56,439 bases of DNA, taken from positions 1 through 56,439 of the forward strand of contig JAAYHJ010000022.1 in assembly GCA_012735465.1 (NCBI GenBank), read 5' to 3'. The stretch is from Clostridiaceae bacterium. GTDB taxonomy: Bacteria; Bacillota; Clostridia; SK-Y3. The translations under genes and the position numbers were made by a program. Position 1 is the first letter of the stretch. The number at the start of each line of letters is the position of its first letter. Positions 4,243 through 49,186 of the stretch are shown piece by piece. Below the pieces are notes generated by a model. It had not been told where the DNA came from and did no database searches. It saw only the letters and a program-made list of their open reading frames with translations.

Positions 4243-5094
4243 ATGGAATTTAAAACAGCAATATGCAAAGCGATCAGCAGGTTGGTTCCCGTACCACAGC
4301 ACCCTTTTAATCTGCAGAGCTCGGGAAAAGAAACTTATGCCGAATGGCAGTACAAGCGCGGGCAGGACACAATCCGCTTTTACCTGGACAAAACTACAAA
4401 GGAAGAAATGTTTCAGGATAAAGTGGTATTGGATATTGGATGCGGTGCGGCAGGTAAAACCCTTTATTACGCATCCCAGGGTGTCAAAAAGATATACGGC
4501 CTGGATGTGGTGGAAAGGTATGAAGAAGAAGCCAATGCCCTGGCACGGCAAAAGGGCCTGGAACATTTGTTCCAATTTGTAGTCGGGGATGCGGCAAAGA
4601 TGGAATTTGAAGATAACTTCTTCGATACCATCATAATGAACGATGCAATGGAACATGTGGACAAACCCTTGGAGGTTTTAAAGGAATGCTACAGGGTACT
4701 CAAGCCGGGAAGCCGGCTTTATGTAAATTTCCCTCCCTATTACCACCCCTACGGCGCCCATCTGAGTGATGCCATAGGGTTTCCCTGGATTCACCTGTTT
4801 TTCAGTGACGAAACCCTCATAAAAGTTTACAAGGATTTGGTAAAAGACCTACCTGACGGAAACAAGAGAATAAGCTTCAGAATTTCCACCGATGAAACAG
4901 GCAGGGAGTATTTTTCATACATTAATAAGATGACCATAAAAAGATTTCAACGGCTGCTTGGGCAGGTTGACTTTAACATCTATTATTACAATGAAGTCCC
5001 TCTGCGCTCTTTCATGAAGCCCCTGTGCCGGATTCCTTTTCTTAAAGAAGGCCTTGTAAAAATGGTGGTATGCATTTTTGAAAAGCCTAAATAA
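4243..5094 (+). CDS. Class I SAM-dependent methyltransferase
   Basis: 283-residue cytoplasmic methyltransferase of unknown substrate. The Rossmann-like SAM fold is clear: VVLDIGCGAAGKT (motif I, about residues 62-74), YGLDVV acidic motif II, VGDAAKMEF motif III, and IIMNDAMEHVDKP motif IV, followed by the Methyltransf_11-type YRVLKPGSRLYVNFPPYYHPYG segment. The C-terminal 110 residues are family-specific and may determine the acceptor. The start is ATG with AAAGGAG 8 nt upstream. It stands with the spore protein gene downstream (43 nt apart), possibly co-transcribed to the terminator at 5321. The class is certain; quinone, lipid or small-molecule acceptors cannot be distinguished. Confidence 0.85.
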   Translation: MEFKTAICKAISRLVPVPQHPFNLQSSGKETYAEWQYKRGQDTIRFYLDKTTKEEMFQDKVVLDIGCGAAGKTLYYASQGVKKIYGLDVVERYEEEANALARQKGLEHLFQFVVGDAAKMEFEDNFFDTIIMNDAMEHVDKPLEVLKECYRVLKPGSRLYVNFPPYYHPYGAHLSDAIGFPWIHLFFSDETLIKVYKDLVKDLPDGNKRISFRISTDETGREYFSYINKMTIKRFQRLLGQVDFNIYYYNEVPLRSFMKPLCRIPFLKEGLVKMVVCIFEKPK

Positions 5095-15492: not shown

Positions 15493-16719
15493 TTAACTCA
15501 CATCGCGGTAGTCAAAAATTCTTTTTGTCTTTTTTTCGCTCCTGGGAAGTGCCCCTAACCTGACCGCTTCCACATTTACGCTCAGCCCTATGTGCTTTTT
15601 AAAATGATCTGCCACCATTCTTTCCACGCTGGACCGATGCCTTTGTCCATCCATTTCAATTCTCAGGGTCATTACGTCCTTACCGTCCACATGGGATATC
15701 AACACCTGGTATTCGCTGCTGACCCCGTCAATGGAACGGAGCAGTCCGTCAATTTGCCCGGGATATATATTTACTCCTTTTACTTTTACCATATCATCAG
15801 TCCTGCCGATAATACGGTCCAGGCGTTTATGCGGGCTGCCGCAAGAGCACCGGCCGGGTATGAGCCTTGTCAAATCCCGGGTCCTGTACCTAAGCAGGGG
15901 TGCCCCTTCCTTAGTCAGCGTAGTAATCACCAGTTCTCCAAATTCGCCTTCCGGCAAAACCTCGCCCGTATCCGGATCTATAATTTCAAAATACAAATGA
16001 TCGTCCCAATAGTGCATTCCTTCATGGAAATGGCAGTCAATAGCTATCCCCGGCCCATATATTTCCGTCAGGCCATATATGTCATAGGTTTCTATTCCTA
16101 ATTCCAATTCTATCCTTCTTCGCATTTTTTCGCCCCAGCGTTCGGAACCAAATATGCCTTTTCTTAAATGTATCTTATCCCTTAACCCTCTTTTGGATAC
16201 TTCCTCGGCAATTACCAAGCCATAGGAAGAAGTGCCTATTAATACGGTGCTTTTTAAATCCATCATCATTTGGAGCTGTTTTTCCGTATTGCCCGGGCCC
16301 ATGGGCACCGCCATGGCTCCCAGCCGTTCTACACCTGCCTGGAACCCTATGCCTGCAGTCCACAGGCCATAGCCCGGTGTAATCTGCACCCGGTCCTTTT
16401 TAGTTATCCCTGCGGTACGCATGCACCGGCACATCATTTCCGCCCACATATCCACATCCTTTGCCGTATACGGTATGATTACCGGTTTACCTGTGGTACC
16501 AGAAGAAGAGTGAATCCGAACAACATCTTCATCGGATACGGCCTGTAAGCCTAAGGGATAAGCATCCCGCAGCTCTTCCTTTGTTGTAAAAGGAAGGTGC
16601 TTTATATCCTCCATGGTACGAACTTTATCTATATCAACACCACATTGTGCAAATTTTTCTTGGTAAAAAGGACTGTTTTTAGATAACCTTTCTAATAATG
16701 ACTTAAACTTATCCAACAT
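15493..16719 (-). CDS. paaK: Phenylacetate/arylacetate-CoA ligase family enzyme
   Basis: 408-residue adenylate-forming enzyme that activates an arylacetate with ATP and CoA to arylacetyl-CoA. The PaaK-type N-terminus is short, the P-loop SSGTTGKPVIIPYT is at about residue 93, DIYGLTEIYGPGIA at about 232, the RTRDLTRLI adenylation motif at about 300, and the AMP-binding C domain (GRTDDMVKVKGVNIYP) follows. It is the last gene of the operon, 60 nt after iorB. PaaK homologues next to iorAB are recurrent. Here activation of indole-, phenyl- or hydroxyphenyl-acetate would supply or consume the IOR product. Exact substrate unproven. Confidence 0.85.
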   Translation of the reverse strand: MLDKFKSLLERLSKNSPFYQEKFAQCGVDIDKVRTMEDIKHLPFTTKEELRDAYPLGLQAVSDEDVVRIHSSSGTTGKPVIIPYTAKDVDMWAEMMCRCMRTAGITKKDRVQITPGYGLWTAGIGFQAGVERLGAMAVPMGPGNTEKQLQMMMDLKSTVLIGTSSYGLVIAEEVSKRGLRDKIHLRKGIFGSERWGEKMRRRIELELGIETYDIYGLTEIYGPGIAIDCHFHEGMHYWDDHLYFEIIDPDTGEVLPEGEFGELVITTLTKEGAPLLRYRTRDLTRLIPGRCSCGSPHKRLDRIIGRTDDMVKVKGVNIYPGQIDGLLRSIDGVSSEYQVLISHVDGKDVMTLRIEMDGQRHRSSVERMVADHFKKHIGLSVNVEAVRLGALPRSEKKTKRIFDYRDVS

Positions 16720-16779
16720 ATCTCATCTCTTTCCTTTCTTATCTCATCTAAAACTTATCTCACCCTGTCATTTTTTTAT

Positions 16780-17367
16780 CTAACACCTAACCGCATTCAT
16801 TCCCAAGCGGAAAGCCTTCCGGTTTAAATCCCTGTATCCTTCTTTTACGTTTTTAAGAATTGTTTCCTCCATAAACTCGGCACATATGGGGAGCAGGTTC
16901 AGCCCAAAAACCGCACCCAGCATTACCACATTGACCGCTTTTGCCGTCCCTGCTTCAACGGCAAGGGAATAGGCATCCACGTATTGGACATTGGGCACGT
17001 TTTCCCGGATAAAGGCTTCCAAATCTTCATGATTATACCGGGCAAGGCCAAGGGAAACAGGGACAGGATTGATCCAATACTTGTTTACAATGCATTGTCC
17101 CATGGGTGATAGGCGGTTTAAGTTTCTTACCACTTCCCCCATTTCAAAGCCCAGCAATAAATCCGCCGTACGATTTGGGATCACCGGGCCCACGTGTTCA
17201 CTGTTTATTCTTACATGGCTGGTTACACAGCCTCCCCTTTGGGCCATTCCTATGGTTTCTGCCGTCCTCACAAAATAACCGGATTTTATGGCAGCATCCC
17301 CCAGCAGGCGGGATGCCAGCACTGTGCCCTGACCTCCGACACCGGCGATGACAACATCAAACTTCAT
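16780..17367 (-). CDS. iorB: Indolepyruvate ferredoxin oxidoreductase, beta subunit
   Basis: 195-residue gamma-type subunit of indolepyruvate:ferredoxin oxidoreductase, which interconverts aryl pyruvate + CoA and arylacetyl-CoA + CO2 with ferredoxin. It starts FDVVIAGVGGQGTVLASRLLG with the POR_gamma GGQG motif, followed by ETIGMAQRGGCVTSHVRI. Its ATG overlaps the iorA stop in a 4-nt ATGA, implying translational coupling and fixed stoichiometry, so if iorA is frameshifted the partner is still made. Length matches the family (about 190-200). Confidence 0.93.
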   Translation of the reverse strand: MKFDVVIAGVGGQGTVLASRLLGDAAIKSGYFVRTAETIGMAQRGGCVTSHVRINSEHVGPVIPNRTADLLLGFEMGEVVRNLNRLSPMGQCIVNKYWINPVPVSLGLARYNHEDLEAFIRENVPNVQYVDAYSLAVEAGTAKAVNVVMLGAVFGLNLLPICAEFMEETILKNVKEGYRDLNRKAFRLGMNAVRC

Positions 17368-18530
17368 CCTTGTTCACCCCCTACAGGCACGATGGCATTG
17401 ACGGGACATACCTGGCTGCACAAATTGCATCCGTTGCACTGTGAAGAATCAATGCAAGGTTTGCCGTCTTCCATATACATGGCAGGGCATCCCAAATCCC
17501 GGATGCATTTTTTGCAGGCTATGCATCTTTCATCGATGTATAAGGGTGTGCCGGACTTTATGTTTTGGGCACAAGGGCTTTCAAAAATCACAACCGAAGG
17601 GCCTTTATGTTCCATTGCCTCCTTTGCAACAGCCACCGCTTCTTTCAGCTTCAAGGGGTCTGCCTTTTTTACATATCCGACCCCGCAGGCCTTTACAATT
17701 TCAGCAATATCTATTATCGGTGCTTCTTTACCCATTGCTGTCCTGCCAGTACCGGGATGGGGCTGGTTCCCCGTCATGGCAGTAGTGCGGTTATCCAGTA
17801 CCACAACGGTAATGTCCGCATTATTGTATACCGCATTGATTATCCCCGGGATACCGGTGTGAAAAAAGGTGGAATCCCCTATAAACGCCAGGTTTACCGT
17901 ATCCGGTTCTATCCTGTGCAAACCTTGTGCTATTGTAATGCCTGCCCCCATGCATAGGCAGGTATCCACCGTCTCCAGTGGTTTTGCATTGCCCAGGGTA
18001 TAACAACCTATGTCCCCTGAAAACACAACCTTTTTGCCCCGGCAAGCAGTTTTAAACGCATAAAAGGAAGCCCGGTGAGGGCATCCCGCGCAAAGAACGG
18101 GGGGACGCGGAGGAAGCTGTGGTAACTCCACCAAGGCTTCCTCCTCCTGTAGCTCTATCGCTAAAAAAGCACAAACTGCTTTTTTGATAAGTTCCACGCT
18201 GTATTCCCCGGCTACCGGCATATGCCCCGTCTTTTTGCCCAATATCAGGGGCGTAGGCTTACAACCTGCACTGAGCTCCCTAAGCTGTTCTTCCACCACC
18301 GGATATAATTCCTCCAATACAAGCACTTCTTCCATTTCATTTAGGAACTTAAGGGCAAGGTCTTCCGGAAACGGATGGGGCGTGCCAATCTTTAACACCG
18401 GTAGCTCAATATTTAACTCATCCATCACTTCTTTTAAATAGGCATAAGCCACACCGGATGCGGCAATTCCTTTTCTGCCATACCCGGATAAGCTGTTAAA
18501 AGAAGACCGGGAAAATAAACGGCTTAGCTC
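17364..18530 (-). CDS. iorA: IorA C-terminal part (TPP and 2[4Fe-4S] domains), -1 frame
   Basis: The frame beginning GAG CTA AGC at 18530 continues IorA after the frameshift. It encodes a pyrimidine-domain remainder (GIAASGVAYAYLKE), a linker, the TPP-binding domain (CAGCPHRASFYA; FIGDSTFFHTGIPGIINAVYN; VVVLDNRTTAMTG), and a C-terminal two-cluster ferredoxin domain (CIACKKC..GCPAMY and CNGCNLCSQVCP). All cofactor residues are intact. The first internal start, GTG 18452, has no good ribosome site and would cut a conserved segment, so independent translation is unlikely. Joined to the upstream frame the protein would be about 599 residues, the normal IorA length. Confidence 0.88.
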   Translation of the reverse strand, partial: ELSRLFSRSSFNSLSGYGRKGIAASGVAYAYLKEVMDELNIELPVLKIGTPHPFPEDLALKFLNEMEEVLVLEELYPVVEEQLRELSAGCKPTPLILGKKTGHMPVAGEYSVELIKKAVCAFLAIELQEEEALVELPQLPPRPPVLCAGCPHRASFYAFKTACRGKKVVFSGDIGCYTLGNAKPLETVDTCLCMGAGITIAQGLHRIEPDTVNLAFIGDSTFFHTGIPGIINAVYNNADITVVVLDNRTTAMTGNQPHPGTGRTAMGKEAPIIDIAEIVKACGVGYVKKADPLKLKEAVAVAKEAMEHKGPSVVIFESPCAQNIKSGTPLYIDERCIACKKCIRDLGCPAMYMEDGKPCIDSSQCNGCNLCSQVCPVNAIVPVGGEQG

Positions 18531-18540
18531 TTTTTTTTCT
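18524..18540 (-). other. A AAA AAG slippery site with stop: candidate -1 programmed frameshift
   Basis: Minus strand reads GAG AAA AAA AAG AGC TAA in the N-terminal frame, with an A8 run at 18538-18531. Slippage by -1 on A AAA AAG makes the next codon GAG, opening exactly the frame of the C-terminal half. This heptamer is the one used in E. coli dnaX. Upstream, GGAAGAG is a weak ribosome-site-like stimulator; downstream CCCGG and CCGGG can pair. A single missing A in the assembly or a real mutation would look the same. Confidence 0.6.
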
Positions 18541-19162
18541 CTTCCAATACAAGATGATTTTTATATGTCAAGCTGGGGAAAATAACCCAGCGCTGATCCT
18601 TTACAAATCCTTCTGCTTTTGATGCATCCACCCGGCCCGTCAGCTCAATGGTACTGCAGGAATGGCATATTCTCGTGGTTGCTCTCAAGATAACAGGCAG
18701 CCCAAAGTCGTGGGAAACTTTAAACGCTTCCTTTACCATTTCCTTGGCTTCTTCAGGAGAAGACGGGTCAAAGACCGGAAGGTTGGCAAACTTGCCAAAG
18801 GCACGGGTATCCTGTTCCGTCTGTGAAGAAAAGGGTCCCGGGTCATCGGCTACAAATACAATCATTGCACCCTTGATTCCCACATAGCTTAAGCTCATCA
18901 GAGGATCCGAGGCAACGTTTAACCCCACCTGTTTCATGGCCACCATGGACTTGGCACCGGCATAGGCAGCCCCTGCGGCCACTTCCAGCGCAACCTTTTC
19001 ATTAACCGACCATTCCACGTATATTCTCCCGTCCCTGTTGTATCGTGCAATTGTTTCCAACATCTCAGTGGAAGGGGTGCCCGGGTATCCGGTTACCACA
19101 TCCACCCCGGCCTCAATGGCACCAAAAGCAATCGCTTCATTACCGATTAAAAGCTCTTTCAT
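18524..19162 (-). CDS. iorA: Indolepyruvate ferredoxin oxidoreductase alpha subunit, N-terminal part
   Basis: 212 codons from ATG 19162 (AAAGGGG upstream) encode the N-terminal pyrimidine-binding domain of IorA. Visible are LLIGNEAIAFGAIEAGVDVVTGYPGTPSTE, EWSVNEKVALEVAAGAAYAG, MKQVGLNVASDPLMSLSY and a PVILRATTRICHS segment. It stops at TAA just after an A8 run, in mid-protein, with no domain boundary expected there. The rest of the protein continues in the -1 frame to 17364. The N-terminal piece alone could not bind TPP diphosphate or the FeS clusters. It is preceded by ecfT with a 36-nt gap. Confidence 0.88.
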   Translation of the reverse strand: MKELLIGNEAIAFGAIEAGVDVVTGYPGTPSTEMLETIARYNRDGRIYVEWSVNEKVALEVAAGAAYAGAKSMVAMKQVGLNVASDPLMSLSYVGIKGAMIVFVADDPGPFSSQTEQDTRAFGKFANLPVFDPSSPEEAKEMVKEAFKVSHDFGLPVILRATTRICHSCSTIELTGRVDASKAEGFVKDQRWVIFPSLTYKNHLVLEEKKKS

Positions 19163-19198: not shown

Positions 19199-19966
19199 CT
19201 ACATAATAAGTACGGCCAATGTAATTGTCCCCAGCAGTGCTATGACCGCATAATCCGTTTTCTTCATATCCACCCTGTTGTAATAGGAACGGGGACCTGC
19301 TCCAAATCCCCTAACTTCCATTGAAATTGCCATTTTTTCTGCTTTTTTGACTGATAAAATAAGCAGTGGAATCGCAAGGGGTATTATGATAAATAATTTT
19401 TTAAAAGGGTTTGACGTATCCGTTTCATAGCCCCTGGAACGCTGGGCTTGTAAAATCTGGTCCATTTCTTCAATAAAGGTGGGTATAAACCGCAATGCTG
19501 TCACAAGCATGAAAGAATATTTAAAAGGTACCCTGCATTTTTCCGTCAGCACCACTATAATATCCTTCATTTGAGTGGTGGTCATCAGAATAGGTATGGT
19601 GGACGTTGTGGCAAGCATCCGTAAAGCAAGCACGGCACTAAACTTAAGGCCTACATCGGTAACCCTACCCAGGTTTATAAAAGGTATGACATAAAAAAGC
19701 GTGTTCCCTTCCTTAACAAAAAAAATCTGGAACAGTATTAATACCAGGGAAAATATAAATAATCCTATAATTGCAGGAATTACTTGTTTTAGCACCCCGG
19801 ACAACCAGGCAACCAAAATGTTGCTCAAGAGAACTATAAAAATTGCCAAAGGCTCCTGAAGTATAAAACACACGCTTAAAACAGCCAGGGTCCACAGTAT
19901 CTTGGTGATTGGGTTCAACCTGTGCACCAGCGTGTCTTTAGGAATATATTCAACCAATGCAGGCAT
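19199..19966 (-). CDS. ecfT: ECF transporter T component (dedicated, tryptophan module)
   Basis: 255-residue membrane scaffold that links the two ATPases to the S component. Hydrophobic helices cover the N-terminal half. The two diagnostic cytoplasmic coupling motifs are present: AQRSRGYET (about residue 178) and SMEVRGFGAG (about 218). The start chosen is ATG 19966, 5 nt after GAAGGTG and overlapping the preceding ATPase gene by 17 nt; the longer TTG frame at 19981 is less likely. It is co-transcribed with trpP, so this is a dedicated (group I) ECF module distinct from the one at 29.5-32 kb. Confidence 0.9.
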   Translation of the reverse strand: MPALVEYIPKDTLVHRLNPITKILWTLAVLSVCFILQEPLAIFIVLLSNILVAWLSGVLKQVIPAIIGLFIFSLVLILFQIFFVKEGNTLFYVIPFINLGRVTDVGLKFSAVLALRMLATTSTIPILMTTTQMKDIIVVLTEKCRVPFKYSFMLVTALRFIPTFIEEMDQILQAQRSRGYETDTSNPFKKLFIIIPLAIPLLILSVKKAEKMAISMEVRGFGAGPRSYYNRVDMKKTDYAVIALLGTITLAVLIM

Positions 19967-20786
19967 TTTTTTCACCTTCAATCATGTACAGGATTTCCTG
20001 GAACATTTGCTCCGGCGTCATAACATTGCGAAAAAGCCCCTTTTTGCTAAATCTTTGTGCCAGGCTAAATATCTGGGGCGGACTTAGTTTGGCTTTTCTT
20101 AACACCTGTTGATTGGAATACACTTCAGCCGGCATGCCGTCCCCTAAAATACTACCTTCGCTTAGTATAATCACCCTCGAAGCATAGCTTGCCACCAGCT
20201 CCATGTTATGGGTAACCATCACAATGGTCTTACCCATACGGTTTAAATCCCCAATCATGTTCATGATTTGGATGCTTTCTTTATAATCCTGCCCGGTTGT
20301 CGGCTCATCCAGCACAATTATGTCCACGTCCAATGCAAGGATGGAAGCCAGGGCTACCCTTTGCCTCTGCCCCTTGCTCAGGGAAAAGGGGTTAGCCTCC
20401 ATGTATTCTTCCAGGCCCACTTTTTGAACCGCTTCCTGGACCCTCCTGTCTATTTCCCGGCCCGGAATCTTAAGGTTCTTCAGGCCAAAGGCAACTTCCT
20501 GTCTGACTGTGCTGCAAAAAATCTGATGGTCAGGATTTTGGAAAAGAAACCCAACATGATGCGCCAGGGTGCTTGTTTTATGCTTTGATACATCCAAGCC
20601 ATTGATATATATTTTGCCATCGGTCGGCTTTAAAAGTCCATTAAAATGTTTAAGCAGGGTGGTTTTACCTGACCCGTTTTGCCCTATAATGGCAACAAAT
20701 TCCCCTTTCTTTATGTGAAAAGAAATATTTTTTAGGATTTGTTTATCCCTTGTATAACCAAAACATAAGTTTTCTGCCCGTATCAT
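19950..20786 (-). CDS. ECF transporter ATPase (second of the tryptophan module)
   Basis: 278-residue ABC ATPase. Walker A GQNGSGKTT (about residue 35), Q-loop LFQNPDHQIF with the ECF-type QNPD motif, a signature written LSKGQRQRVA where LSGGQ is usual, Walker B IIVLDEPTTGQD, and the H-loop VTHNM. The non-canonical Lys in the signature may matter for the pairing of the two unlike ATPases. It overlaps the preceding ATPase gene by 4 nt and the T component by 17 nt, so all are translationally coupled. Confidence 0.93.
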   Translation of the reverse strand: MIRAENLCFGYTRDKQILKNISFHIKKGEFVAIIGQNGSGKTTLLKHFNGLLKPTDGKIYINGLDVSKHKTSTLAHHVGFLFQNPDHQIFCSTVRQEVAFGLKNLKIPGREIDRRVQEAVQKVGLEEYMEANPFSLSKGQRQRVALASILALDVDIIVLDEPTTGQDYKESIQIMNMIGDLNRMGKTIVMVTHNMELVASYASRVIILSEGSILGDGMPAEVYSNQQVLRKAKLSPPQIFSLAQRFSKKGLFRNVMTPEQMFQEILYMIEGEKNACIG

Positions 20787-21649
20787 TTAAAATTCCCCCA
20801 ATCCTGTAGTACTTTGCTTATTACCATATAAGCTTCATCCACCTTTAGCGGATATTCTCCGTGATACAGCCCCCGTTCCTTTAACATGTGGGCCAGCTGC
20901 GTAACCGGGGGACAGTTTATACCAAGGGGTTTTAGGATATCCTGCCGGGCAAGCACTTCCCGGCAGGACCCTTCTATCACGATTTTACCTTTATCCATTA
21001 CCATCAATCGGCTGCAGTATTGGGCAAGATACTGGATTTTTTGCTCAATTACAATTATTGTAATACCATGGTTTTCATTCAGGTTTTTTAACGTATCGTA
21101 AACTATCTCCGTGCCCTGGGGGTCCAATTCGGACGTGGGCTCATCCAATACAAGAATCTTGGGATGCAGTGCTATGGCCGATGCAATAGCCACCCTCTGC
21201 TTTTGTCCGCCCGAGAGCCGGGAAGTGGAATGGTACCTCAGGTGGGAAATGCCTGTGATCTCCAGTGCTTCTGTAATCCTTCTTTCCATCTCATGCCGCG
21301 GCAGGTTCAAATTCTCCAGTCCAAAGGCTAATTCATCTTCCACCACCATTGCCACCATTTGCGCTTCGGGGTCTTGAAAAACGCTTCCAATAGAGCCGGC
21401 CAGCACCGCACAATCATTTTCCACCGTATCCTTTCCGTCCACCCATACGCTTCCGTAAAAATCCCCCGGGTAAAAATGGGGTATAACACCGTTCATGCAC
21501 AAGGCTAATGTGGTTTTACCTGCTCCCGTCGGGCCTATGATACCTATGAAATCCCCCTGTTTTACATCCATATTTATTTGATCCAGTGCAGGAACTTTTG
21601 AACCCTGGTATACAAACGTCAAACCGGATATTTTTATAATGCTACTCAT
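20783..21649 (-). CDS. ECF transporter ATPase (first of the tryptophan module)
   Basis: 288-residue ABC ATPase with Walker A GPTGAGKTT, Q-loop VFQDPEAQMV, canonical [12 protein letters not shown] signature, Walker B ILVLDEPTSELDP, and an H-loop region written VIEQKIQ, in which the usual His is replaced by Glu-Gln. ECF heterodimers often carry one degenerate site; here the degeneracy is split (H-loop in this one, signature in its partner). It overlaps trpP by 8 nt and the next ATPase by 4 nt. Confidence 0.93.
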   Translation of the reverse strand: MSSIIKISGLTFVYQGSKVPALDQINMDVKQGDFIGIIGPTGAGKTTLALCMNGVIPHFYPGDFYGSVWVDGKDTVENDCAVLAGSIGSVFQDPEAQMVAMVVEDELAFGLENLNLPRHEMERRITEALEITGISHLRYHSTSRLSGGQKQRVAIASAIALHPKILVLDEPTSELDPQGTEIVYDTLKNLNENHGITIIVIEQKIQYLAQYCSRLMVMDKGKIVIEGSCREVLARQDILKPLGINCPPVTQLAHMLKERGLYHGEYPLKVDEAYMVISKVLQDWGNFK

Positions 21650-22202
21650 CTTTTTTCCCCAATGCTGTTTTAATAGGATAATACAATACCTGCGCCAACA
21701 CCGAGTTGACCATTGCAGTAACCACTACCACCATCAATAAATAAGTAAAGGCTGGATTGCTGGGAGTTTCTATAAAAAGGATTAAAAACTTCAAAGTGAG
21801 TACATAGGTAAGACCGCTTGCTACCGTTCCCAGCAGGGTTACGATAAAGGGTTTAAAGGAATACTTTTTAAACGAGACATTAAAAGGCGCCATAACCAGC
21901 AGCCCGGCAACTATTGCCCCTACCGGTTCACTTATGAAATTGATATAGGGTATAAGGGATTTGGTGGTAAAATGGCATACAGCTGCTGCAACCAGGCCAA
22001 TTCCCAGTACTTCTTTAAGACCGGGGCGTATCAGCAGGATTGCCAGACAATACATTCCAATGACCAGGTTGGGCGTGATACCAAAAAAGGGAGGGGTGTA
22101 CAGCCTAAGCACTGCTCCTGCCGCAATCAGTATTCCTGCCGCCACAATGTCCACTGCCTCTAAGCCCTTCTTTTGAACTTCTCTCTTTACTGTTGTTTCC
22201 AT
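21642..22202 (-). CDS. trpP: Tryptophan ECF transporter S component (TrpP family)
   Basis: 186-residue integral membrane protein resembling TrpP, the predicted tryptophan-specific S component. After a polar start (METTVKREVQKKG), about six hydrophobic segments follow. The TrpP-like stretch is LIAAGAVLRLYTPPFFGITPN.., then VCHFTTKSLIPYINFISEPVGA. The start chosen is ATG 22202, 9 nt after GGAGG; longer frames to 22340 run into the leader. Identification rests on family memory plus the leader: TRAP-type triplets upstream are what one expects for a tryptophan gene. It is the first gene of the operon trpP-ecfAA-ecfT-iorAB-paaK. Confidence 0.85.
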   Translation of the reverse strand: METTVKREVQKKGLEAVDIVAAGILIAAGAVLRLYTPPFFGITPNLVIGMYCLAILLIRPGLKEVLGIGLVAAAVCHFTTKSLIPYINFISEPVGAIVAGLLVMAPFNVSFKKYSFKPFIVTLLGTVASGLTYVLTLKFLILFIETPSNPAFTYLLMVVVVTAMVNSVLAQVLYYPIKTALGKKDE

Positions 22203-22203
22203 T

Positions 22204-22279
22204 CTCATCAACCTCCAAAATTTTTTTTTGAAGTTTAAGAAGATTGGAGCTGAGAGATGAGTCTTTAAGAGAGATGATA
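22204..22279 (-). promoter_or_regulatory. CUC-rich segment complementary to the TRAP triplets and to the trpP start
   Basis: RNA from 22261 to 22247 reads CUCAUCUCUCAGCUC, complementary to GAGCUGAG (22391-22384) and GAGAUGAG (22376-22369) in the triplet array. Its CUCAUC end is also complementary to GAUGAG (22209-22204), which lies directly between the trpP ribosome site and ATG. A second AUCAUCUCUC copy spans 22279-22270. If TRAP covers the triplets, this segment is free to mask the trpP start: a possible translational layer of control. Confidence 0.5.
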
Positions 22280-22297
22280 AAGAAATGATTATAGATA

Positions 22298-22329
22298 CAA
22301 AAAGCGGCAGGATGATAAACCCTACCGCT
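22298..22329 (-). terminator. Attenuator terminator in the trpP leader
   Basis: Minus strand: AGCGGTAGG (22329-22321) pairs with CCTGCCGCT (22311-22303) with one wobble and a 9-nt loop, followed by TTTTTG. A competing antiterminator is available: CCCAGTAGCCG (22358-22348) can pair with CGGTAGGG (22327-22320) as CCC/GGG, TA/TA, CCG/CGG with small bulges. Confidence 0.8.
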
Positions 22330-22350
22330 GTATTTTTCAAAAAATTTCGG

Positions 22351-22418
22351 CTACTGGGCTCATCTCAACTCATCTCGTCTCAACTCAGCTCAGCTTATTA
22401 ATTTACTCAACTCGTCTT
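22351..22418 (-). promoter_or_regulatory. TRAP (MtrB) binding site: NAG triplet array in the trpP leader
   Basis: Read 5' to 3' on the minus strand, triplets start 11 nt after the predicted transcription start. AAG, GAG, GAG (22418-22406) come first, then a 9-nt gap, then AAG (22396), seven GAG in an exact 5-nt register (22391 to 22359, spacers always 2 nt), CAG (22356) and TAG (22353). That is thirteen NAG, nine of them GAG. Eleven G/UAG repeats with 2-3 nt spacers is the known site for the TRAP 11-mer bound to tryptophan. The last two triplets overlap the antiterminator strand, as in the B. subtilis trp leader. Confidence 0.82.
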
Positions 22419-22435
22419 AAACTAACTTAGTAAAT

Positions 22436-22464
22436 AGTATACGTTAAGAATTATAAAATGTCAA
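22436..22464 (-). promoter_or_regulatory. Promoter of the trpP operon
   Basis: Consensus sigma-A promoter on the minus strand: TTGACA (22464-22459), 17-nt spacer, TATACT (22441-22436). Predicted start near 22429, giving a leader of about 225 nt. Confidence 0.88.
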
Positions 22465-22470
22465 TTGTTT

Positions 22471-23403
22471 TCAGAACATTTTCCTCTTTACAAATATGAA
22501 TGTCACCGTGCATACCAATACAAGGGACAACAACATGGTAAATAAAAAAGCATGGGGAGAATGTTGGAACGGCAGTTCAACATTCATGCCATAAAAACTG
22601 GCTACCATCGTTGGTAAGGACAGTACAATCGTAACGGATGTTAAAAATTTCATCACTATATTTAAATTATTCGAGATTACGGATGCAAAAGCATCCATCG
22701 TACCACTTAATATGCTGCTGTATATATTGGACATCTCAATAGCCTGTTTGTTTTCTATAATTACATCTTCCAACAGATCCTGATCTTCTTCATAAAGCTT
22801 AATGGTTCTGCCCCTCAGGATTTTTTCCATTGTAATCTCATTTGCCTTTAAGGATGTGGAAAAGTACACCAGGCTTTTTTCCAGGTCAAGCAACTGTATC
22901 AGCTCTTTATTCTTCATGGACCTGTGGAGCTGATTTTCCACTTCACTGCTTATTCTGTCTATTTGTTTAAGATACTGTAAAAACCGGGTTGCAACCCTGA
23001 AAAATATCTGCAGAACAAACCTTGTCTTCATATTTGTATAAACGGACTTTACGGTACCGTTTGAGAATTCATTGATTATTGTATTTTCCTTCAAGCATAC
23101 AGTAACAATGTTTTTATCGGTAATAATTATACCCAACGGGATGGTGGAAAAATATATTGTTTCCTCATCCTGTTGAGCCAAAGGAATATCAATAATGATA
23201 AGCGTTTGGCCATCTTCCGATTCAATTCGCGATGTCTCTTCATCATCCAACGCAGCTCTCAAAAAACCGGGATCCACATTGAGTGCCTGCACCACGCTAT
23301 CAATTTCACTTTCGGTCGGAGATACTAAATTAATCCAGCAACCATCTTCAATCCTGTCAATTTCCTGAATCTTCCCATCTATCGTCTTGTATATACATAA
23401 CAT
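22471..23403 (-). CDS. corA: CorA-family magnesium/divalent metal transporter
   Basis: 310-residue protein with a large cytoplasmic alpha/beta funnel and helical stalk, then two C-terminal membrane helices. The hallmark YGMN motif follows the first helix (SFYGMNVELPFQHS, about residues 267-280), and the tail is basic (VKRKMF). It forms pentameric Mg2+ channels in the membrane. The start is ATG with GGAGG 8 nt upstream. The stop lies only 7 nt before the trpP -35 box, so read-through into that operon is possible. Confidence 0.93.
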   Translation of the reverse strand: MLCIYKTIDGKIQEIDRIEDGCWINLVSPTESEIDSVVQALNVDPGFLRAALDDEETSRIESEDGQTLIIIDIPLAQQDEETIYFSTIPLGIIITDKNIVTVCLKENTIINEFSNGTVKSVYTNMKTRFVLQIFFRVATRFLQYLKQIDRISSEVENQLHRSMKNKELIQLLDLEKSLVYFSTSLKANEITMEKILRGRTIKLYEEDQDLLEDVIIENKQAIEMSNIYSSILSGTMDAFASVISNNLNIVMKFLTSVTIVLSLPTMVASFYGMNVELPFQHSPHAFLFTMLLSLVLVCTVTFIFVKRKMF

Positions 23404-48879: not shown

Positions 48880-49156
48880 ACGACAGCAGTAAAAAACTGT
48901 ACACTGTGCCGGGTGTTTCATACTACCCTATAATTAAACCCAGATTAACGTCAGAAAAAGACATAACCTGGGCTAGAATGCTACATAATAGCACACTCCA
49001 TCCGCTCATGAACAACTTAACCGGACCGCCCCCTCAGCGGTCAGTATACCAGTCAAATTGCATGAGGTATTAAAGTGTACAGTGACTCTGTCGCCCGGTT
49101 TCATGAATCGGACATTCTCCGTGGAAATTCCCCAGTTTATAACCGGCAACCTTCCA
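48880..49156 (-). ncRNA. Candidate structured leader RNA of the S10 operon
   Basis: Minus-strand RNA between the promoter and rpsJ. An outer stem pairs 49088-49093 with 48881-48886 (CGACAG/CTGTCG, plus a wobble). Separated by a small internal loop, a 10-bp stem pairs 49074-49083 with 48896-48905. These enclose three hairpins: 49024-49042 (GACCGC/GCGGTC), 48978-48994 (GTGCTA/TAGCAT) and 48939-48972 (13 bp with one bulge, CCCAG/CTGGG at its base). Upstream, 49122-49156 forms a further hairpin (TGGAA/TTCCA with an inner CCGGTT/AACTGG). There is no protein-coding frame of note. A ribosomal protein may bind it to control the operon (inference). Confidence 0.6.
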
Positions 49157-49186
49157 CATCATCGTATGCCATGTCACAACTATTTT

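Follow-up and report, generated by a model that had tools for sequence, protein, structure and literature searches.

The window, by which we mean the whole 56,439-nt stretch of DNA that was analysed, carries on its minus strand a putative operon that runs from trpP through the genes of an ECF transporter and iorAB to a paaK-like ligase gene. It is headed by a leader with a promoter, an array of NAG triplets and an attenuator:

22464-22298, minus strand: leader, between corA (end at 22471) and trpP
22436..22464, minus strand: promoter of sigma-70 type, TTGACA-17-TATACT, 11 of 12 consensus bases
22354..22413, minus strand: candidate TRAP-binding array of 11 NAG triplets, called from the triplet pattern and the co-occurrence of arrays with mtrB
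22317..22361, minus strand: antiterminator, fold of -9.7 kcal/mol, 5′ strand starting inside the last GAG triplet
22298..22329, minus strand: intrinsic terminator and T5 run, 11-bp stem (22329-22303), -17.0 kcal/mol
22203..22257, minus strand: hairpin sequestering the trpP Shine–Dalgarno sequence (SD) and first ATG, -13.8 kcal/mol, with counterparts in six further TRAP-type trpP leaders
21642..22202, minus strand: trpP, S component of an ECF tryptophan transporter (PF17099 TrpP, E 1.2e-8)
20783..21649, minus strand: ecfA1 ATPase (PF00005)
19950..20786, minus strand: ecfA2 ATPase (PF00005)
19199..19981, minus strand: ecfT transmembrane component (PF02361)
18524..19162, minus strand: iorA, N-terminal part (TIGR03336 positions 1-212, E 2.9e-93)
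17364..18452, minus strand: iorA, C-terminal part (TIGR03336 positions 240-595, E 7.9e-129)
16780..17367, minus strand: iorB (PF01558; IOR beta families below their cut-off)
16722..16761, minus strand: weaker TRAP-like array over the paaK ribosome-binding site (RBS): GAG AAG TAG GAG AAG, 8-nt gap, GAG GAG
15493..16719, minus strand: paaK-like AMP-forming arylacetate-CoA ligase (PF00501/PF14535)

The ligase scores 433 bits against TIGR02155, under the cut-off of 646, and trpP has an alternative in-frame start at 22208. The reading frame of iorA changes at an A8 run near 18538 (18524-18545), splitting the gene in two; as it is a single open frame in relatives (L007, L009, L010 and L015), the break may be an assembly error, or it may reflect mutation or slippage. 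Elsewhere on the minus strand of the window lie an FMN riboswitch (1404-1537, 121 bits) and an S10-Clostridia ribosomal protein leader (49088-49170, 39 bits).

A triplet array between promoter and attenuator

From its 5′ end, the array consists of GAG (22413), GAG (22408), a 9-nt gap, AAG (22396), seven GAG in strict 5-nt register (22391-22359) and CAG (22356). The CAG adjoins a TAG at 22353, so that at most one of the pair is usable, leaving 11 usable triplets, nine of them consecutive with 2-nt spacers and the other two beyond the gap. Measured against a TRAP site of about 9-11 NAG triplets, mostly GAG or UAG, with 2-3-nt spacers, the array departs in one spacer. Its chain-scan score is 8.0, whereas none of 100 first-order shuffles of the 56-kb window exceeds 5.7. 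In the 2.32-Mb genome, the leader is the sole match to the pattern KAG(NN)x5, exact or with one mismatch, in a search by pattern that arrays with 3-nt spacers or gaps would escape. The last GAG and the bases that follow it can pair with the 5′ arm of the terminator, so that the antiterminator overlaps the last triplet and competes with the terminator, as in a TRAP leader. With a terminator of far greater stability than the antiterminator, the leader may show high basal termination. The leader ATGs reach stops within a few codons, as judged by eye, and a leader peptide was rejected.

T-boxes sense uncharged tRNA, not free tryptophan. In Firmicutes, Trp T-box leaders also attenuate tryptophan genes (PMC2494555); unlike these, the trpP leader matched neither a T-box nor any other family at gathering thresholds in an Rfam scan of the window, and no T-box turned up when nine trpP loci were scanned.

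The first-pass annotation of this DNA had described a consensus promoter and an intrinsic terminator with a T5 run, and both are there, the latter as an 11-bp stem followed by TTTTT. It had counted thirteen NAG triplets with seven GAG in a 5-nt register; the register stands, but the thirteen include poorer triplets. Its antiterminator is present and slightly longer than drawn, spanning 22361-22317. The RBS hairpin at trpP, the array at the paaK start and the iorA frameshift are additions to that annotation.

In overall arrangement, the leader resembles that of B. subtilis trpEDCFBA, which has a NAG array after the promoter, an antiterminator over the last triplets, a terminator and a hairpin over the RBS of the first gene (PMC3913778; PMC4347634). 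The two differ in target, trpP-ECF-ior-paaK here and trpE there, and in spacing: the B. subtilis trp array has 2-3-nt spacers (PMC3913778), whereas the clostridial array is split in two by a gap, as are those of the relatives L007-L010 and L142. On its sequence and predicted folds, together with the mtrB gene and the comparisons given below, the leader is very probably a TRAP-dependent, tryptophan-sensing attenuator.

The regulator gene and the leaders of relatives

That tryptophan-bound TRAP switches this operon off, as the first-pass annotation had proposed, gains support from two sides. First, the regulator gene mtrB, which that annotation had named as the thing to look for, is encoded in the host genome (profile match, E 5.2e-38). 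The protein scores 134.8 bits against an NCBIfam MtrB cut-off of 117, gives strong phmmer matches to solved TRAP structures and mostly retains the MtrB core GLTRG/DTKFHH/EKLDKGE/IAQFTE/TSAIKVRGKA; the gene is on contig C71, flanked by dnaE and a phosphofructokinase-like gene (neighbours named by eye from translations). A search for anti-TRAP (rtpA) in seven genomes of the order, run without a positive control, returned no match, which may be a further difference from B. subtilis.

Second, the leader is kept in relatives, with its triplets, antiterminator and terminator retained though the bases differ. TrpP relatives were drawn from 20 genomes; in two of these, L021 and L026, the contig does not include the leader. 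Triplet arrays stand just upstream of trpP in L007 (Petroclostridium), L008, L009 (Pseudobacteroides) and L010, and all four genomes encode mtrB; counted over loci with the leader on the contig, arrays are found in 4/4 with mtrB versus 0/14 without (one-sided chance 1 in 3060, computed by hand). L015, which lacks mtrB, has no leader array; its four triplets lie scattered some 370 nt upstream of trpP. A terminator–antiterminator pair is found in L007, L008, L009 and L010, and L142 has the same geometry more weakly; in five leaders, the 5′ end of the antiterminator lies within the last GAG or beside it despite differing bases. These leaders were compared fold by fold, the MAFFT alignments of attenuators and RBS hairpins being out of register.

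Predicted translational sites at trpP and paaK

The hairpin at trpP leaves the SD with an unpaired probability of 0.19 in the window and of 0.00-0.20 across the window and the six other TRAP-type trpP leaders; the median over 44 control sites, a set that still contained TRAP-type leaders themselves, is 0.41. The window value is 0.20 in both computed states, TRAP-free and TRAP-bound, and only L142 shifts clearly between them (0.49 versus 0.20). Since the computed folds show no opening of the SD in the TRAP-free state, the case for a translational switch is weaker than that for the attenuator, and we infer a TRAP-driven switch at this SD only from its likeness to the trp leader of B. subtilis.

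Control by TRAP bound to the leader might be exerted mainly on translation, with the RBS hairpin as the working part and the terminator of minor importance. The hairpin is retained in 7/7 TRAP-type trpP leaders examined, including those of L131 (array at 4312-4344) and L132 (4479-4516), which have an array before trpP and no obvious terminator or attenuator hairpin upstream and where TRAP control is perhaps by translation only; B. subtilis trpP, too, is controlled at translation (a reference in PMC4347634). We nevertheless regard this as unlikely for the window, which like L007-L010 keeps a strong terminator and a competing antiterminator over the last triplet, an arrangement that is hard to explain without attenuation.

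The array over the paaK start points to a further site. In B. subtilis, TRAP blocks translation of the tryptophan-linked gene ycbK, and trpP, which encodes its transporter as a single gene, is not known to have a TRAP site other than the translational one. Triplets over the RBS serve TRAP to block translation of B. subtilis trpP (yhaG) and trpG, which are also linked to tryptophan (PMC4347634). The clostridial trpP differs from its B. subtilis counterpart in belonging to an ECF complex and in having an attenuator; the candidate site at paaK is of the same type as the B. subtilis trpP, trpG and ycbK sites. The window copy is weak: its chain score is 3.7, and 0.4% of 86-nt stretches taken at random from the window score at least as high. 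Stronger paaK-start arrays are found in other genomes with mtrB. The paaK start was scored in 30 genomes that encode a close PaaK; it reaches at least 3.0 in 17/19 with mtrB versus 0/11 without, a cut that was picked after the scores were seen; the rank test, which is independent of the cut, gives p 8e-6 (Mann–Whitney), and limiting the comparison to the five mtrB-lacking loci next to iorAB gives p 6e-4. In most loci with mtrB, no other place in a 3-kb stretch scores as high as the paaK start. Close PaaK is also commoner in genomes with mtrB (23/44, p 5e-6). By comparison across genomes, the paaK start thus has triplets over its RBS that are tied to mtrB, as expected of a translational site of the trpG/trpP type.

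Tryptophan supply and the direction of the pathway

Among 391 Clostridia genomes, mtrB is present in 89, about a quarter of the sample. Exact five-triplet arrays occur in 47/89 genomes with mtrB versus 24/302 without (p = 7e-19, with an odds ratio of 13, against p = 0.065 for the reversed pattern as control); the genomes counted are related, so these p-values overstate independence, a bias that the reversed-pattern control shares. Many of the 24 array-bearing genomes without mtrB have simple GAG-rich repeats. The arrays examined in other mtrB-encoding genomes often precede trpE, trpG, trpD, trpB or trpB-like genes, and they also precede ECF-type trpP (L131, L132 and L142) and single-gene trpP-like transporters (named by sequence resemblance); several others precede unrelated ORFs or no ORF. 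One genome, L142, has the gene order array-trpP-ecf-iorA, and two, L135 and L191, have strong arrays at paaK after iorB. The trpB-like genes behind the TRAP-type arrays of L143, L144, L154 and L165 are about 30% identical to TrpB and are possibly TrpB2. In L129 (4643-4675, minus strand), a 7-triplet array lies over the start of a 234-aa methyltransferase-like ORF, either an unexpected TRAP target or chance.

The trpEGDCFBA operon of the host (L065:1646-8516, contig C22; gene order by translation) has a leader with a T-box and no TRAP array, which again sets it apart from B. subtilis. Five genomes of the same family (L159, L166, L167, L169 and L170) have arrays at trpE. The host Trp proteins share 70-83% identity with their counterparts in G050, a genome of another family (locus L141), and about 45-55% with those in same-family genomes; the G+C content of the host trp contig, 0.42, equals that of the window (0.42). 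The host trp operon is probably a horizontal replacement of a TRAP-controlled one. In G050 itself, the leader of trpE (L141:4180-4700, minus strand) seems by eye to combine a T-box-like sequence with a TRAP-type array after it, possibly a tandem control that senses both tRNA and tryptophan.

We propose the following mechanism, in which binding, the response to tryptophan, the direction of the enzymes and co-transcription are what we infer from the features above. With tryptophan plentiful, the MtrB ring would load tryptophan and wrap the 11 NAG triplets; with the last GAG triplet wrapped, the antiterminator would be blocked and the terminator would form, stopping transcription of trpP-ecfA1-ecfA2-ecfT-iorA-iorB-paaK. 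Transcripts that escape would probably also be poorly translated, with the hairpin hiding the trpP RBS, and at paaK TRAP binding to the second array over the start would block translation. With tryptophan scarce, TRAP would release the RNA and the operon would be expressed, importing tryptophan and probably also making it from indoleacetate: PaaK would form indoleacetyl-CoA, which IOR would reductively carboxylate to indolepyruvate. Such a shut-off by Trp-TRAP argues that IOR and the AMP-forming ligase run anabolically here, as does the role in tryptophan supply of the other targets identified.

In Bacteroides, IOR next to an AMP-forming ligase may serve biosynthesis (PMC13285125), and conversion of aryl acids to aromatic amino acids has been reported for the methanogen M. 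maripaludis (cited in PMC4162585). In contrast to both, IOR and ligase here lie with a tryptophan transporter in one putative operon, for which TRAP control is predicted. The same genes could instead serve aromatic amino acid fermentation, with tryptophan entering and indoleacetate and ATP produced, TRAP merely limiting the process; IOR is widely annotated as fermentative (for example, PMC5817080), and the operon includes a tryptophan importer. This seems to us improbable, since the breakdown of tryptophan would then be switched off by tryptophan itself, the other TRAP targets found are tryptophan supply genes, and AMP-forming ligases such as this one have been argued to favour acyl-CoA synthesis (PMC13285125), the direction in which the M. 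maripaludis precedent also points. That the array is a functionless purine-rich repeat, as the GAG-rich repeats of genomes without mtrB might suggest, or the site of another RNA-binding protein is very improbable, given that it is unique in the genome, lies between promoter and attenuator and belongs to a class whose members, both in trpP leaders and at the start of paaK, co-occur specifically with mtrB.

The first-pass annotation had held TRAP control of such an operon to be undescribed. TRAP control of Trp transporters is in fact known, from B. subtilis trpP/yhaG (references in PMC4347634); the ECF type and the IOR-PaaK targets appear to be new. That annotation also assigned no role to the IOR/ligase pathway, for which repression by Trp-TRAP would argue biosynthesis. 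In the open-licence literature, we found no paper joining TRAP with Clostridia or with indolepyruvate/PaaK, and paaK and IOR are not among the TRAP targets found there. The mechanism is of a known kind, and its targets appear to be new.

To our knowledge, TRAP is a textbook regulator that has been studied almost only in Bacillus. A broader and more novel reading, to which we give a probability of roughly 0.6, is that in many Clostridia TRAP directly controls indoleacetate-to-tryptophan salvage (IOR plus arylacetate-CoA ligase, often with a Trp ECF transporter) by operon attenuation and a block at the paaK start, and that in this lineage the trp operon was given to a T-box while TRAP was kept for salvage and uptake. 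TRAP would thereby gain a candidate new class of target in Clostridia, IOR-PaaK, and a single genome would divide labour between a tRNA-sensing T-box for biosynthesis and a tryptophan-sensing TRAP for uptake and salvage. The direction in which IOR-PaaK runs in these anaerobes is disputed, and regulation by TRAP would itself predict tryptophan synthesis from indoleacetate.
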